Positions 20,145 through 63,008 of a stretch of DNA of 64,000 bases are shown in pieces. The notes below the pieces were generated by a model. It had not been told where the DNA came from. It did no database searches and worked only from the letters and a program-made list of their open reading frames with translations. The DNA comes from Sporosarcina sp. P33 (GTDB lineage Bacteria; Bacillota; Bacilli; Bacillales_A; Planococcaceae): NCBI RefSeq assembly GCF_002077155.1, contig NZ_CP015027.1:434001-498000 (forward strand). The letters run 5' to 3'. How positions within the stretch are numbered: position 1 is the stretch's first letter; each line of letters starts with the position of its first letter. Both the position numbers and the translations under genes were made by a program.

Positions 20145-20171
20145 TGAAACTTTACAGACTGCTCATCCGTA
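20145..20171 (+). promoter_or_regulatory. Sigma-W-type promoter of ysdB
   Basis: TGAAAC, 17 bases, CGTA. This fits the ECF sigma-W promoter pattern, and ysdB is a known sigma-W target in B. subtilis. The predicted start site lies about 30 bases before the ysdB ATG. Confidence 0.75.
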
Positions 20172-20207: not shown

Positions 20208-20588
20208 ATGGTTTTATTAATTCGCGTATTCATTCTGGCACTTGTCATTTACTTATTTTATGCGGGAATCCGCTATTTGACAGATGCTAAACGTAAGTTA
20301 GATGAAGCGTATGAAAAAGGACAGTATTATTTTTATGATGACAATAAAAACATCCGTAAAAACTTTTTCATCACGTATAAAGGCGCGATGTTTGAAGGCG
20401 AGAAATATCTGGGTACTACGACTGATTCATTCGATGTAGTTTCCATTTTCATTTGGGTAAAAAATGAGTCGAAACTGCAAGGTATGACAAAAGAAGACTT
20501 TCATTTTCTCGAAACAGAAGTTCAAACGTATTATCCGCATGCTGAAATCAACTGGAAGAATCCGATCGAACAATTAATGAAATCTTGA
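20208..20588 (+). CDS. ysdB: Sigma-W pathway membrane protein YsdB
   Basis: A 126-residue protein with one N-terminal membrane helix (about 3-23) and a cytoplasmic domain with YYFYDD and KNFFITYKGAMFEGEKYLG. It matches YsdB, whose gene also neighbours ysdA and rplT in B. subtilis and is transcribed by the envelope-stress factor sigma-W. The biochemical role is not known. AGGAG precedes the ATG. It has its own sigma-W-type promoter and a strong terminator. Confidence 0.85.
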   Translation: MVLLIRVFILALVIYLFYAGIRYLTDAKRKLDEAYEKGQYYFYDDNKNIRKNFFITYKGAMFEGEKYLGTTTDSFDVVSIFIWVKNESKLQGMTKEDFHFLETEVQTYYPHAEINWKNPIEQLMKS

Positions 20589-30476: not shown

Positions 30477-33101
30477 TCACTTTGTTTCGTACCAGGACTT
30501 GCCATAATTCCAATCGACTTTCAATGGAACGTCCAGTTGAATCGTCTGCTCCATGACTTCCGGTACGATTTCTTTTAACTTCTCCAGTTCTTCCATAGGC
30601 GCTTCAAAAATCAGCTCATCATGCACTTGCAGCAGCATACGGGCCTGCAAATTTTCTTCTTCAAGTCGTGCATCCATATCAATCATTGCCTGTTTAATGA
30701 TATCTGCAGCTGTCCCCTGAATCGGTGTGTTCATGGCAGTGCGCTCCGCAAATCCGCGCAAATTGAAATTGGAGCTTGTGATATCAGGCAAATAACGGCG
30801 GCGCTTCAGCAGAGTCGTTACATACCCTTTTTGTTTTGCATCAGTAATACTGTTATCCATATATTGCTTTACGCCCGGGAAGCTTGCCAAATACGTGTCA
30901 ATGAATTCCCCTGCTTCTTTGCGCGTAATATTTAAACTTTGTGATAATCCATAGTCGCTGATTCCATAAACAATTCCAAAGTTGACCGCTTTTGCCGCAC
31001 GCCTCATATTCCCGTCCACTTCGTCTTCTTTGACGCCAAATACATCCATCGCCGTTTTCGTATGAATATCTGCGCCTTGACGGAACGCTTCGATTAACTT
31101 TTCGTCCTGTGAAATATGCGCAAGCACACGCAATTCGATTTGCGAGTAATCCGCCGCGAACATAATCCAGTCTTTTTCAGACGGTATGAACGCCGCGCGT
31201 ATTTTTCTTCCTTCTTCCAAACGGATCGGGATATTTTGCAAGTTGGGATTGATGGAACTCAATCTTCCTGTCTGAGTCAGCGCCTGCTGGAACCGGGTAT
31301 GAATTTTTCCGTCTTCATGAATTTCTTTCGTCAGACCTTCGATATATGTGGAATTCAATTTTCCGAGCTGCCGATATAATAAAATATGCTGGATAATTTC
31401 ATGTTCACTTTCAAGCTTCTCGAGCACATCGGCAGCTGTGGAGTAACCTGTTTTCGTTTTCTTGATCGGTGTCAGGCCGATTTTTTCAAATAATATAACA
31501 CCCAATTGCTTAGGTGAATTAATATTAAACTTCTCGCCCGCCATTTCATAAATCGTTTTCTCAATGACTGCCAGACGTTCTGATAACTCTTCACCAATTG
31601 AGCGCAATACATCCACATCTGTTCTGACGCCCGTCACTTCCATTTTTCCAAGTATCTTTGCCAATGGCAGTTCGAGATCATGGAATAAGTCCCGCTGCTC
31701 ATTATCCTCTAATTGTTTTGTAATGACCGGATACAGCTCCCAGACGGCATGCGCTTTTCTTGCCGTATGATTGGCCAGTTGTTCCGCTGCCGGCAATGAA
31801 CGTTTAGCTCCTTTGCCGTAGACTGTTTCATCATTTTCAACGCCATGATAGCCGAATGACCGTGCGATCTCAGATACTTCATTTGTCGAGAATGAAGGAT
31901 TGACGATGTACGCAGCCAGCATCAAATCAAAGTCTATGCCAGCAAGCTCTAGGCCGAGCCGCGCAATTGCCGCATAGGCAGACTTGGAATCAGAGACATA
32001 TTTACGGGTCCCGTGATCTTCAATCCACTTTTTAAAGACGCCGGAAGAAGCAGCCAGCTCCGTCGAAATAAAATACGTCTGCTCGTCATTCGACAGGCCG
32101 ATGCCTAAAACGTCTCCAGACAAATAGTTTTCTCCATCGATTTCCACATGCAGCGCCATTGTGTCTGTTAACATATCCGAAGTGATTTCTTCCACGTGGT
32201 GAACGCCAATTTCTTCCAGCGGCTCAACTTCGACAGGCGCATCCATTTTTTCAAGCAAGGATTTGAATTGCAGCTCTTTGTATAACTGAATGACTTCCTC
32301 TTCATTTCGTCCTGCATAATCGAGTTCCTGCAGCGATACGGTAATCGGCGCGTCCACTTCAATCGTTGCAAGCTCTTTACTCATAAATGCCTGCTCTTTA
32401 TTATTCACTAAGTTTTCCTTCATTTTCTTTGCGGTAATTTGATCGATCGATTCATAGACGTTTTCTACAGAACCGTACTCTTTCAGCAGCTTCAGCGCAG
32501 TTTTTTCTCCGATTCCCGGCACACCTGGAATATTATCGGATGCATCACCCATCAGACCTTTCATGTCGATAATCTGCAAAGGGGCAATGCCGTACTTTTC
32601 TTCGATATGTGCAGGCGTGTAGATTTCGAGATCGGTAATTCCTTTTCTCGTAATGCATACGGTCGTATGTTCATTTGATAATTGTGTTAAATCCTTATCA
32701 CCTGAAATAACGACAACTTCCGCTTTGGCTTCACTGCATTCTTTGCTTAGTGTTCCGATGATGTCATCCGCTTCGTAGCGGTCGAGTTCATACTGTTCAA
32801 TGCCAAATGCTTCAATCAGCTTACGGATGTATGGGAATTGTTCTGACAGCTCAGGCGGGGTCTTTTGGCGGCCCCCTTTGTATTCGGTGTACGTGCTGTG
32901 GCGGAACGTCGTTTTCCCGGCATCCCAGGCTACCAGCATATGCGTCGGTTTTTCTTTCTCCAGAATCATTTCAAGCATCATAGTAAAACCATATACCGCA
33001 TTTGTGTGAATCCCTTTTTCATTCGTCAATAAAGGCAGCGCGAAAAACGCACGGTACGCTAAGCTGTTTCCATCCAATAAGAGCACTTTCTTTTTCGTCA
33101 A
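30477..33101 (-). CDS. polA: DNA polymerase I
   Basis: An 874-residue repair and Okazaki-fragment-processing polymerase. It has an N-terminal 5'-3' exonuclease (about 1-290; DGNSLAYRAFFAL, DASDNIPGVPGIGEKTA), a central 3'-5' exonuclease fold that is degenerate (HVEIDGEN where active enzymes have DTET), and a C-terminal polymerase domain with DYSQIELRVLAHIS (motif A, about 650-663) and QVHDELIFE (motif C). Loss of proofreading residues is usual in Bacillus PolA. The start is a TTG giving MTKKKVLLLDGNS, behind AAGGAG; a GTG four codons earlier overlaps the site. Confidence 0.95.
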   Translation of the reverse strand: MTKKKVLLLDGNSLAYRAFFALPLLTNEKGIHTNAVYGFTMMLEMILEKEKPTHMLVAWDAGKTTFRHSTYTEYKGGRQKTPPELSEQFPYIRKLIEAFGIEQYELDRYEADDIIGTLSKECSEAKAEVVVISGDKDLTQLSNEHTTVCITRKGITDLEIYTPAHIEEKYGIAPLQIIDMKGLMGDASDNIPGVPGIGEKTALKLLKEYGSVENVYESIDQITAKKMKENLVNNKEQAFMSKELATIEVDAPITVSLQELDYAGRNEEEVIQLYKELQFKSLLEKMDAPVEVEPLEEIGVHHVEEITSDMLTDTMALHVEIDGENYLSGDVLGIGLSNDEQTYFISTELAASSGVFKKWIEDHGTRKYVSDSKSAYAAIARLGLELAGIDFDLMLAAYIVNPSFSTNEVSEIARSFGYHGVENDETVYGKGAKRSLPAAEQLANHTARKAHAVWELYPVITKQLEDNEQRDLFHDLELPLAKILGKMEVTGVRTDVDVLRSIGEELSERLAVIEKTIYEMAGEKFNINSPKQLGVILFEKIGLTPIKKTKTGYSTAADVLEKLESEHEIIQHILLYRQLGKLNSTYIEGLTKEIHEDGKIHTRFQQALTQTGRLSSINPNLQNIPIRLEEGRKIRAAFIPSEKDWIMFAADYSQIELRVLAHISQDEKLIEAFRQGADIHTKTAMDVFGVKEDEVDGNMRRAAKAVNFGIVYGISDYGLSQSLNITRKEAGEFIDTYLASFPGVKQYMDNSITDAKQKGYVTTLLKRRRYLPDITSSNFNLRGFAERTAMNTPIQGTAADIIKQAMIDMDARLEEENLQARMLLQVHDELIFEAPMEELEKLKEIVPEVMEQTIQLDVPLKVDWNYGKSWYETK

Positions 33102-33132
33102 AATCCATCCCACTCCTTCGTATTCATCGCTA

Positions 33133-33199: not shown

Positions 33200-34228
33200 T
33201 TACTGTGTATTGCCCGTTAACAGCTTGGCATATGGTGAATCTGCCGGCAGAATGATCATCGTTTCGTCATCTACGACTTTCGAGTACGATTGAAGTGTTC
33301 TGTACAGTTTGTAAAACTCCGGGTCTTTAGAAAATGCATTATTATAAATTTTTGCAGCTTCGGCTTCACCCTGTGCCGTTACAACCGCCGCTTCTCTCTT
33401 TGCTTTCGCAAGCATTTCCTGAACTTCCCGGTCTGTTTCTGCTTCAATTTTCTGCTTTTCCGCATCGCCTTCTGACAGATACGACTGAGCAGTGGACTCA
33501 CGCTCCGAAATCATCCGCGTGTAAATGGATTGTTCGTTTTCTTCAGGCAAGTCAATACGCTTCATGCGCACATCGACTACTTCAATCCCGAAGTTTCCTT
33601 CTTCCAAAAACTTATTTACTTTTTCCGTCACATTATCGTTCAAGCTACCACGGGAAGAGTCTTCGTCATTGACGACATTCACGTAATCAAGCCGCCCCAT
33701 CTCATTGCGGACAACCGAATAGATGAACTCTTCCATTCTCGCTTCTGCATTCACGATATTCCTAGCGTTGGCAATCATTTTAGCGGGGTCCGTAATATGC
33801 CATACCGCATAGTTATCGATAATAATCCGCTTCTTGTCTTTCGTATTGATTTCTGCTTCCGAGACATTGTATGTCATTTGATTTTTCGGCAGTGAAGAAA
33901 CACTTTGAATGAATGGTATTTTCATATTGATACCCGGCTCCTGCACAATTCTTGTAATTTCACCGAATTGACGGATGATCCGGTACTCATTCTCTTTGAC
34001 GATGAATAAGTTGGACAGCAGAATGGCCAATAGGGCAAAGATCGCTGTCAGCGTGATAATTAACTTCGTATGGCGTTTAATATCCGCCGCCTTTTTCGGT
34101 CTCATTGGCGTGACTTTTGAGTCCGGCCCGGTTTCTGCCGGCTTTTGCACTTTTTTCTTTTGATCCGTTTCGCTCATTTTCTTTAACGCATCTTCTATTT
34201 TCTTGAAGGGGTTCTGTTCGTTGCTCAT
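33200..34228 (-). CDS. hflC: Membrane protease modulator HflC (SPFH family)
   Basis: A 342-residue SPFH/prohibitin-family protein. A lysine-rich cytoplasmic N-terminus of about 50 residues is followed by one membrane helix (about 53-73), the SPFH domain (about 75-250) and a coiled coil rich in E, A and K (about 245-295, including AEKQIKIEAETDREV-like heptads). HflC with HflK forms a large cage around the FtsH protease and restrains its attack on membrane proteins. Its ATG overlaps the hflK stop codon (ATGA) with AAAGGAGGG inside the end of hflK. B. subtilis has no hflKC between polA and phoR, so this is an addition to the conserved order. Confidence 0.9.
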   Translation of the reverse strand: MSNEQNPFKKIEDALKKMSETDQKKKVQKPAETGPDSKVTPMRPKKAADIKRHTKLIITLTAIFALLAILLSNLFIVKENEYRIIRQFGEITRIVQEPGINMKIPFIQSVSSLPKNQMTYNVSEAEINTKDKKRIIIDNYAVWHITDPAKMIANARNIVNAEARMEEFIYSVVRNEMGRLDYVNVVNDEDSSRGSLNDNVTEKVNKFLEEGNFGIEVVDVRMKRIDLPEENEQSIYTRMISERESTAQSYLSEGDAEKQKIEAETDREVQEMLAKAKREAAVVTAQGEAEAAKIYNNAFSKDPEFYKLYRTLQSYSKVVDDETMIILPADSPYAKLLTGNTQ

Positions 34229-35202
34229 GAAGCTTTCCCTCCTTTCGCGGCTGACTTATCCGTTTCTTCCGATTCGCCTGCCTGCGTTTTCTGCAGCTGC
34301 TGGAGCGGCAAATACTTCATCGTCTCGCCGCTGTCATTCATAATATAAAGATTGGCTTTTGGCAGCACTTGTTCAAGTGTTTCCAAAATCAGACGTTCCC
34401 TTGTGATTTCTTTGTTCTTTGCGTATTCATTATACAGATCACTGAATACCGCAACATCTCCGCGGGCCTGCTCAATACGTGCTGTCTTTTTCCCCTGAGC
34501 CTGGGATTTAATTGCGTCCCGTTCACCGATTGCTTCTTTCGTGCGCTTGTTCTCGTATTTCTTTGCTTCGTTAATTTTCGTATTTTTTGTTTCACGCGCA
34601 TCTGTAACAGCAGTAAACGCTGCACGCACTTCGGCATTCGGCAGTTCCACGTCCTGAAGCTTGACACCCTGCACAGCGATACCGATATCATATTTCTTTA
34701 CTAAACTTGTTAATAGGTCGCGTGTCTTCGCTTCAATCTCCGCCTTGCCGTCTGTCAGTGCGGCATCAATGGTAGAGCTTCCAATGATGGATCGAATGGA
34801 AGCGGATGCGGCGTCGCGTAATATTTCAATTGGTTCTTCCGCATTGAATAAGTATTTCTTCGGATCCACAATACGCCATTGGACTGTCAGATCGGTCAGG
34901 ACAATATATTCGTCACCTGTGATCATCTTCGTTTCTTTATCGACAATCTCCCCCGACTTATCTTGCTTGTAACCGAAGTGTATACTGTACGTTTCCTTTG
35001 ATAAAATTTCTGCCCGCTGAATTGGCCACGGCAGTTTGAAATGAAGACCTGAGTCGGTAATTGGTGCCCCGGCCTGCCCAAATGAAATGACGACAGCCTG
35101 TTCAGATTCGTCCACGGTATACCACGTAGTAAATACGATCAATAAAAGCAATAGTCCCGTGACCGCTAAACCGAGTGACACTAAGATTCTTTTTGTGCCC
35201 AT
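34225..35202 (-). CDS. hflK: FtsH protease modulator HflK (SPFH family)
   Basis: A 325-residue SPFH protein with a single N-terminal membrane helix (about 7-28), the SPFH domain (about 30-215) and a C-terminal helical region (about 215-300) that ends in a lysine/glutamate-rich tail. It forms the HflKC complex with the following gene, at a four-base overlap. It lacks the long glycine-rich N-terminal extension of E. coli HflK. GGGAGG precedes the ATG. A promoter of sigma-W shape lies in the 75 bases after phoR, so it may be induced by envelope stress independently of phoPR. Confidence 0.9.
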   Translation of the reverse strand: MGTKRILVSLGLAVTGLLLLLIVFTTWYTVDESEQAVVISFGQAGAPITDSGLHFKLPWPIQRAEILSKETYSIHFGYKQDKSGEIVDKETKMITGDEYIVLTDLTVQWRIVDPKKYLFNAEEPIEILRDAASASIRSIIGSSTIDAALTDGKAEIEAKTRDLLTSLVKKYDIGIAVQGVKLQDVELPNAEVRAAFTAVTDARETKNTKINEAKKYENKRTKEAIGERDAIKSQAQGKKTARIEQARGDVAVFSDLYNEYAKNKEITRERLILETLEQVLPKANLYIMNDSGETMKYLPLQQLQKTQAGESEETDKSAAKGGKAS

Positions 35203-35235
35203 ATCTGTTCCTCCCTTTTCTATGTATGACTACTG

Positions 35236-35262
35236 TACGGAACAACAGACCAGTAAGTTTCA
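35236..35262 (-). promoter_or_regulatory. Sigma-W-type promoter of hflKC
   Basis: The minus strand reads TGAAAC, 17 bases, CGTA: the same elements and spacing as the promoters of ysdB and sppA in this window. The predicted start site is about 27 bases before the hflK ATG. Confidence 0.7.
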
Positions 35263-35277
35263 CTTTTGACACCCGGA

Positions 35278-36687
35278 TTATTCTGCTGCAGGCAATTGAA
35301 TGCGAAAAACGGTGCCCACTCCTACTTCACTGTCAACGGAAACCGTGCCATGGTGCGCTTCCACGATGTGTTTTACAATCGCGAGACCTAAACCTGTACC
35401 GCCGGATTCTCTGCTTCTCGCACGATCAATACGATAAAACCGCTCAAACAATCGCGGCAGTTCTGAAGACATAATCCCAATCCCCTGATCGCTGACCGTG
35501 ATCTCCACCTGATCCTGCTCCGCTTTTACCCCGACTGTAATTTCCGTGTTTTCCTGTGAATATGCAATGGCATTGTTTAATAAATTGACCATCACCTGTA
35601 CAAGACGATCGTGATCCGCCGGAATAATCAATTGCTTCGGCATGTTTAATACAATATTCATCTCTTTTTCCAATACTTTTGTCTGAACAATTTTGATCGA
35701 CTGTTTAATAATCTCCACTACATCGACAGACTCATGGCTAATTTCAAAACTTCCGCTTTCCAGGCTCGATAGCCGCAATAAATCTTCAATTAATAATTGC
35801 AGCCGGTTACTTTCTTTATACATGATCTGCAAGAAATCCCGCGTAAGCGCCGGATCATCCACCGCGCCGTCCAGAAGCATCTCAGAGAAACCTTTTATCG
35901 AAGTGACCGGCGTTTTCAGTTCATGCGAAACATTCGCCACAAAATCTTTGCGCACTTGTTCCAGCCGGATCAGCTTGGTAATGTCATGCATGATAATAAC
36001 AATTCCGAGCCAATTGCCGTTTTCCCCAATAACTGGCGCACCATACACTTCCAAGTGGCAAATTCCTTCATCAGTGAGTATCTGTGATTGAAAAGAGCGA
36101 ACTTCTTCTGTCAGGAATATCGCTTCAATTTCTTCCTCAATATCCGAAGGCAGTCCGATATCTTTATACGTTTTGCCCATCAGCTTTTCCCCATCGCGCT
36201 GAAACGTCTCTTCAAATACCCGGTTGACCAAATTGACGGCGCCTTGTCTGCCGAACATCAGCAGGCTGCTCCCGATACTGCTGACCAGCGTTTTCAAGCG
36301 TTCCTGCTCCATTGCACGCTGAGCAGAATTCCCTTGCAGCTTTTGAGCGATTTGATTGATCTCGTTAGTCAGCTGCTGATGTAATGCACTGTCTTCCAAA
36401 TGAGCCCGGGCTACATAATTCCCCTGTGCCAGCTGGTGAGTTATATCGGCGAAATGATCGATTGGCTGCGCAAACTGCTGAAGTATTTTTGCCATCACGA
36501 ACATCATGACAATGAATGCCAAAACGAGCGTGAACAGCAAGTAGACCCAATACGTCTGCTGAATGACCGGTTCCACCTCATCCGCGAATAAATGAAAAAA
36601 TTGTCCTAAGATGATTCCCAGCACAATTAAAAGAATGGATAAAATAACTGCGGAAGCTGCTAAGAGTTTTGAATAATAGTTCTTCAT
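35278..36687 (-). CDS. phoR: Sensor histidine kinase PhoR
   Basis: A 469-residue membrane kinase paired with PhoP. It has TM1 (about 9-31), a loop of only about 15 residues, TM2 (about 47-66), HAMP (about 67-120), PAS (about 130-235), HisKA with the phosphorylated histidine in NVSHELKTP (H255), and HATPase with N, G1 (DQGIGI), F and G2 (GTGLGLAI) boxes. B. subtilis PhoR is about 110 residues longer because of an extracytoplasmic sensor domain that is absent here; sensing through the membrane, PAS domain or Pst is more likely. GGGGAG precedes the ATG. It is cotranscribed with phoP and the MaoC-like gene. Confidence 0.92.
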   Translation of the reverse strand: MKNYYSKLLAASAVILSILLIVLGIILGQFFHLFADEVEPVIQQTYWVYLLFTLVLAFIVMMFVMAKILQQFAQPIDHFADITHQLAQGNYVARAHLEDSALHQQLTNEINQIAQKLQGNSAQRAMEQERLKTLVSSIGSSLLMFGRQGAVNLVNRVFEETFQRDGEKLMGKTYKDIGLPSDIEEEIEAIFLTEEVRSFQSQILTDEGICHLEVYGAPVIGENGNWLGIVIIMHDITKLIRLEQVRKDFVANVSHELKTPVTSIKGFSEMLLDGAVDDPALTRDFLQIMYKESNRLQLLIEDLLRLSSLESGSFEISHESVDVVEIIKQSIKIVQTKVLEKEMNIVLNMPKQLIIPADHDRLVQVMVNLLNNAIAYSQENTEITVGVKAEQDQVEITVSDQGIGIMSSELPRLFERFYRIDRARSRESGGTGLGLAIVKHIVEAHHGTVSVDSEVGVGTVFRIQLPAAE

Positions 36688-61382: not shown

Positions 61383-61934
61383 CTAAACGGTAGGGTCTTC
61401 TTGCAACTGATGTTGTTCAGGATGTATCATCTTCTGAACTTCCACTCTTTCAAATGTGCGTTCATGAACAACGACTGTATCCGCAAACAAGTCATGAAGC
61501 GCCATCTTTTTCGGCAGGAACAAAACGAGCAAATAAGGAATCCATAACATTTGTGAAATAAAACGTCCGAAGCCTTCTCTGAACAGAATAGCGCTCCAGC
61601 CTGGCTTGCGTCCGTCCGCTGTCATGACACGGATTCCCATGACCATCTTTCCTATCGTCTGCCCCGCAAACTTCGTCATCAACATAAAATACAGCAGCAG
61701 TAAAACAAGTGCCGTCACTTTATACGGGCTGAATAAAAAGGCGGATGGCTTGGTAATGGCTATATCGAGCACGCGAAACACCGGCTTGACAAAGATGCCG
61801 CTTATCGCCGAAATAACTAGCATATCAAGTAAAAATGCCCATAGTCTGATCCAGAATCCAGCGTATTTAGGTATGAGTCTCTGTTCCATCTGCACTGTTT
61901 GATCTGTATCCGGCAGTTCGTTCATCATGTTCAT
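61383..61934 (-). CDS. yteJ: RDD family membrane protein YteJ
   Basis: A 183-residue RDD-family protein with a short acidic N-terminus and three to four membrane helices. It has LIPKYAGFWIRLWAFLLDML near the start, where the usual R-D-D residues appear as R, D, and QTIGKMVMGIRVM in the second half. In B. subtilis yteJ is cotranscribed with sppA under sigma-W and affects the response to antimicrobial peptides and SppA activity. The chosen ATG follows AAGGAGG, just after the sppA stop codon. Confidence 0.85.
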   Translation of the reverse strand: MNMMNELPDTDQTVQMEQRLIPKYAGFWIRLWAFLLDMLVISAISGIFVKPVFRVLDIAITKPSAFLFSPYKVTALVLLLLYFMLMTKFAGQTIGKMVMGIRVMTADGRKPGWSAILFREGFGRFISQMLWIPYLLVLFLPKKMALHDLFADTVVVHERTFERVEVQKMIHPEQHQLQEDPTV

Positions 61935-61944
61935 GTCCTCCTCC

Positions 61945-62949
61945 TTACTCACCATATAAATACATCATGCGCGGCGCGTGATTATCAGTCAGCAGCTTTT
62001 TCATGATTTGTGACTCTGCATCTCCACTGAATACATCATGGGCTTTCATGGAAAGCAATGCGGTTAAATTTGTAGGTGTTCCATACTCAAACACTTCCGC
62101 TTTCTCCAAATGATAGTCTTCTTTCATTTGAGAAATGACAAGGGGCAGCTTTCCATAATCATCAGCAAGCCCTGCTTCAATTGCTTGACGGCCATTCATG
62201 ACGCGCCCATCGGCTACTTTGCGCACCGCTGCTTCTTTCATGCCGCGCCCTTCTACAATAATGTCGACGAAACGCTGATACGAGTCATCAATCATTTCTT
62301 GCAGCATGGCACGTTCTTCAGATTTCATTTCCCGTGTAGGACTCATCATATCTTTATATGGACCTGATTTAATCGTCGGGAAATCGACTCCGTATTTTTC
62401 CGCCAGTTTTCCATAATTGACAGACTGCATGATGACTCCAATTGAACCGGTTAATGTTTCAGGATGAACATATATCTTGTCTGCCGGAGCGGAAATATAA
62501 TAGCCTCCTGAAGCCGCCATGCCGCCCATCGCCGCATACACCGGAATTTTTTTCGCTGACTGAATTTCTGTCAGCGCATCATAGATATCGGAAGATTCCA
62601 GCACACCGCCGCCTGGGGAATTCACTGAAAGTACAATCCCTTTCACGGTGTCGTCATTTGCCAATTCATTCAATTGCGTCATAAATTGGCGGTGATTGTA
62701 CTCCGCTCCGCTGAATATAGACGCTTCACCTGTGTCCTGAATAACGCCATCCACCGTTAATACCGCGATGCGTTCACTGGAACTTCCTTCCTCCACGATT
62801 GTTTCCTGCACCTGCTTTTCCATTACATTGATTTCATTGACGAAACTGTTCCAGTCTCTCGTAAAGACCCATGACATCATATTGATCCCAACGGACACAA
62901 TAATCAATGTCGCCGCAACAGCAACGGCAATCCATCTTTTTGCATTCAT
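61945..62949 (-). CDS. sppA: Signal peptide peptidase SppA
   Basis: A 334-residue membrane serine protease of the ClpP/crotonase fold that degrades remnant signal peptides. One N-terminal membrane helix (about 7-27) is followed by the protease domain with VNSPGGGVLESSDIY, the nucleophile serine in MGGMAASGGYYIS and the lysine base in SGPYKDMMSP, as in short SppA proteins. GGAGG precedes the ATG. A sigma-W-shaped promoter stands 30 bases upstream, matching the sigma-W control of sppA-yteJ known in B. subtilis. Confidence 0.95.
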   Translation of the reverse strand: MNAKRWIAVAVAATLIIVSVGINMMSWVFTRDWNSFVNEINVMEKQVQETIVEEGSSSERIAVLTVDGVIQDTGEASIFSGAEYNHRQFMTQLNELANDDTVKGIVLSVNSPGGGVLESSDIYDALTEIQSAKKIPVYAAMGGMAASGGYYISAPADKIYVHPETLTGSIGVIMQSVNYGKLAEKYGVDFPTIKSGPYKDMMSPTREMKSEERAMLQEMIDDSYQRFVDIIVEGRGMKEAAVRKVADGRVMNGRQAIEAGLADDYGKLPLVISQMKEDYHLEKAEVFEYGTPTNLTALLSMKAHDVFSGDAESQIMKKLLTDNHAPRMMYLYGE

Positions 62950-62981: not shown

Positions 62982-63008
62982 TACGTTCCTCATCGTCCTA
63001 ATGTTTCA
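62982..63008 (-). promoter_or_regulatory. Sigma-W-type promoter of sppA-yteJ
   Basis: The minus strand reads TGAAAC, 17 bases, CGTA, with the ATG about 33 bases past the CGTA. Confidence 0.8.

Follow-up and report, generated by a model that had tools for sequence, protein, structure and literature searches.

What transcribes hflK and hflC in Sporosarcina sp. P33, a soil bacterium, and how old is the arrangement that does so? We approached this question in a window of 64 kb (the whole stretch of DNA analysed), in the 3.24 Mb genome to which it belongs and in the genomes of relatives. Our answer, which we hold to be very likely, is that the phoR-hflK gap contains a sigma-W promoter, which would drive hflK-hflC through SigW released from RsiW, with HflKC acting on FtsH. 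This control would be ancestral, and hflKC would have been lost in the line leading to B. subtilis.

A promoter between phoR and hflK

The hflK gene (34225-35202, minus strand) encodes a protein of 325 aa with an SPFH domain, matching Band_7 and scoring 217.7 bits against TIGR01933 (cut-off 159.4), and hflC (33200-34228, minus strand) encodes a protein of 342 aa with 217.4 bits against TIGR01932 (cut-off 134.4). Both members of this adjacent HflK/HflC pair are thus above the equivalog cut-offs. The two reading frames share 4 nt, hflC starting before hflK ends, and form one operon. The conserved neighbours are co-directional with hflK, with phoR (35278-36687, minus strand) upstream and polA (30477-33113, minus strand), the conserved neighbour of hflC, downstream. 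From the end of phoR at 35278 to the start of hflK at 35202 there is a gap of 75 nt. When this gap was searched in Sporosarcina sp. P33, we found no terminator and no convincing strong sigma-A promoter.

On its minus strand, the gap reads TGAAAC (35262-35257), a 17-nt spacer and CGTA (35239-35236), followed by the ribosome-binding site AGGGAGG (35216-35210) and the ATG at 35202. The -35 and -10 elements, TGAAAC-N17-CGTA at 35262-35236, match exactly what the earlier note had claimed for this gap and lie 60 nt upstream of the hflK start. Transcription would be expected to begin at around 35229. The same note had pointed to two further promoters in the window with identical elements and spacing, in front of ysdB and sppA-yteJ, as sigma-W company for hflK, and both are exact, with N17. 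The second site (20145-20171, plus strand) is 63 nt upstream of a ysdB-like ORF (20208-20588) that adjoins a ysdA-like gene, rplT and rpmI. The third (62982-63008, minus strand) is 59 nt upstream of sppA (61945-62949), which is followed by yteJ (61383-61955).

Three sites in 64 kb, when 0.35 exact matches are expected from shuffles, are suggestive only, and a single such match would not be unusual in a stretch of this length. One of 100 shuffles of the window also held three, and one could argue on these grounds that the hflK motif is a chance match with no function.

Conservation of the promoter among relatives

The decisive check on the reality of the hflK promoter was its conservation. Among 80 named HflK relatives (Sporosarcina, Planococcus, Lysinibacillus, Psychrobacillus and others), 76 carry an exact match in the 150 nt ahead of hflK. 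Its spacer is 16 or 17 bases long and it lies 57 to 77 nt upstream of the start codon (median 60). The remaining four have one base different in the -35 element. Elsewhere in these loci, counting both strands, 2 matches occurred in 1.08 million strand-positions, a background of roughly 0.0003 per 150 nt. The reversed pattern gave 0 matches upstream of hflK in these relatives. Occurrence at the same place in 76 of 80 relatives against such a background rules out the chance match, to which we assign a negligible probability. When distant relatives are compared, the -35 and -10 elements stay constant, whereas the spacer and the flanking bases differ at many positions, which we take as a signature of selection on a promoter.

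Two smaller features were seen around these elements. In close relatives of S. ureae, a 9-bp dyad, GACTACTGT-TCCGT-ACAGTAGTC, lies over the hflK -10 element, and a weaker dyad trace covers the same element in the window (35230-35255). The dyad is absent from other genera and, being confined to the closest relatives, was dropped as a general feature of the promoter. In the hflK leader, downstream of the promoter (35221-35228 in the window, and the same place in relatives), ATACAT is present in 34 of 76 relatives.

The sigma factor reading the promoter

Sigma-W control had been proposed from the shape of the promoter, with a search for sigW and rsiW suggested as a check and the absence of sigW as an argument against it. 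We found a SigW orthologue in the genome (290.6 bits, cut-off 243.1), encoded behind its own TGAAAC-N16-CGTA promoter, and the gene that follows sigW is RsiW-like, with a product of 211 aa that matches general anti-sigma models weakly. The genome also encodes a SigX-like factor (251.5 bits, cut-off 260) and two further ECF-like factors.

Since these other factors are present, overlap with SigW is possible, and B. subtilis ECF factors share promoters. Hence, one could argue that the hflK promoter is read mainly by the SigX-like or another ECF-like factor, SigW being secondary or uninvolved. However, the base following CGT is A in 76 of 76 relatives, and CGTA is the -10 form of SigW, whereas CGTC is that of SigM and SigX. 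Besides, sigW itself carries the motif seen upstream of hflK, and this motif is missing from the hflK genomes without SigW. Among 28 hflK genomes outside the family, the motif was present in 22 of the 25 with SigW and in 0 of the 3 without it, a tentative difference (Fisher p 0.006, but 0.07 with exact motifs alone), as the SigW-less genomes represent only two lineages. According to these comparisons, a main role for another ECF factor is quite improbable, and the reading of the hflK promoter by SigW is strongly supported at the sequence level.

A different doubt concerns how much this promoter contributes, as hflKC might be expressed mainly by read-through from phoP-phoR, the SigW promoter being a minor addition. 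The shortness of the gap after phoR, the terminator not found in it and the conserved, co-directional neighbours would all fit such an arrangement. On the other hand, a terminator-like hairpin lies directly upstream of the -35 element in about half of the relatives (a rough scan counted 48 of 80, including a few that are weak or fall within phoR), and the promoter is strongly conserved. We find it unlikely that read-through is the main source. In the relatives with this hairpin, placed as it is just upstream, most hflKC transcripts probably start from the SigW promoter. In Sporosarcina sp. P33, where no terminator was found after phoR, read-through from phoPR may add to hflKC transcription, and both sources may add up.

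If SigW does drive hflK-hflC, the response can be pictured from its homologues. As in B. subtilis, envelope stress would lead to proteolysis of RsiW and free SigW, and free SigW would bring RNA polymerase to TGAAAC-N17-CGTA, from which the hflK-hflC operon would be transcribed. The two products would form an assembly around membrane-bound FtsH, as their E. coli homologues do, and adjust the turnover of membrane proteins.

Depth of the promoter across Bacilli

The earlier note had supposed that hflKC joined the sigma-W regulon in this organism. This part of its proposal is not supported, since the same promoter stands at the same place throughout Planococcaceae, the organism's own family, and also in Bacilli of nine further families, so it did not arise here. 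With TIGR01933, HflK passed the cut-off in 210 of 261 genomes from the order and in 64 of 399 from the class. The exact motif was found upstream of hflK in each of 11 further genera of Planococcaceae. Among 28 loci from other families, 16 have the exact motif, spanning the nine families, and six more have a one-mismatch -35 element with CGTA. The usual order in the other-family loci with the motif is phoP-phoR-[P]-hflK-hflC-polA, where P is the promoter.

The earlier note had also called HflKC absent from this locus in B. subtilis, which agrees with our search of that control genome, where TIGR01933 gave no match. Judging from its distribution, the hflK promoter seems to be of the same age as the locus, and B. 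subtilis is therefore the exception. Sigma-W control is most likely ancestral at hflKC, and the absence of these genes from B. subtilis would most simply be a loss.

Four Paenibacillus-like genomes have only a degenerate TGCGAC or TGAGAC-N16-CGTA upstream of hflK (one of them is counted among the six one-mismatch loci), and no phoR match was found beside hflK in them. Their SigW is divergent, at 246 to 250 bits, and perhaps the promoter has co-evolved with it.

SigW-type sites in the genome

A search of the whole genome (one contig) for TGAAAC-N16-17-CGTA, the other check suggested by the earlier note, returned 38 sites, compared with 12 for the reversed pattern. About 16 of the 38 are intergenic with a start codon 48 to 84 nt downstream. 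The genes behind the intergenic sites include sigW-rsiW, nfeD1b-floA, a ydjI-like SPFH gene (Band_7_1), ysdB and sppA, together with a DUF4097 gene (yvlB-like), a DUF350 gene and an ABC transporter. Other intergenic sites of this type precede uncharacterised or membrane proteins, possible extra members of the regulon.

A Band_7 search of the genome retrieved HflK, HflC and the ydjI-like protein only, FloA being identified separately, and FloT was not found by this search. As the Band_7 matches and FloA each carry a site (that of the ydjI-like gene at contig positions 100130-100155), every SPFH gene found in the genome (ydjI-like, floA and hflKC) stands behind an exact SigW-type promoter.

Comparison with known systems

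In B. subtilis, the sigma-W regulon includes yqeZ-yqfAB (floA), yuaFGI (floT), pspA-ydjGHI and sppA-yteJ, behind the same form of promoter as here (PMC3498285). Targets common to that regulon and this genome are sigW-rsiW, nfeD1b-floA and sppA-yteJ, as well as the ydjI-like, ysdB-like and yvlB-like genes. Unlike in B. subtilis, which lacks hflKC altogether, hflKC is an additional target here, the ydjI-like gene has a site of its own, and FloT was not among the Band_7 matches. YdjI, FloA and FloT are SPFH proteins under sigma-W control in B. subtilis, linked to the membrane stress response (PMC8581546). SPFH proteins have sigma-W or sigma-W-type promoters in both organisms, although HflK and HflC belong to a separate SPFH branch (TIGR01933 and TIGR01932).

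We found no report of sigma-W control of hflKC in open-access papers; subscription papers may hold one. That hflKC is a new, widely conserved target of the known sigma-W regulon is well supported by the comparison of promoters. Because the regulon was defined in B. subtilis, where hflKC is missing, an apparently old part of the response has been hidden, and in the rest of Bacilli few sigma-W targets appear to be as conserved as hflKC. The sites found here suggest that SPFH proteins are controlled as a class by sigma-W.

HflK and HflC of E. coli are modulators of FtsH that assemble with it (PMC12048511). Both proteins of Sporosarcina sp. P33 pass the equivalog cut-offs, as said above, and one canonical FtsH is encoded (881 bits, cut-off 600). 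The difference is that hflKC is flanked here by phoR and polA and has a SigW-type promoter, and that its complex with FtsH is a predicted one. None of the 38 motif sites is near the FtsH gene. If our reading of the hflK promoter is true, the proteins that modulate the main membrane protease would be tied to the envelope-stress response.

A broader and more tentative proposal is that sigma-W ancestrally regulates all the SPFH membrane scaffolds of Bacilli (FloA, YdjI, HflKC and FloT). HflKC would belong to the core of this set, although B. subtilis has lost it, and would feed back on the sigma-W response by setting FtsH activity. We regard this as possible rather than probable. In B. subtilis, the sigma-W target pbpE is raised when FtsH is lost, which would fit such a feedback loop. 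A second FtsH-like protein is also encoded in the genome (contig 1091811-1093115), with a score of 389 bits that is below the FtsH family cut-off.
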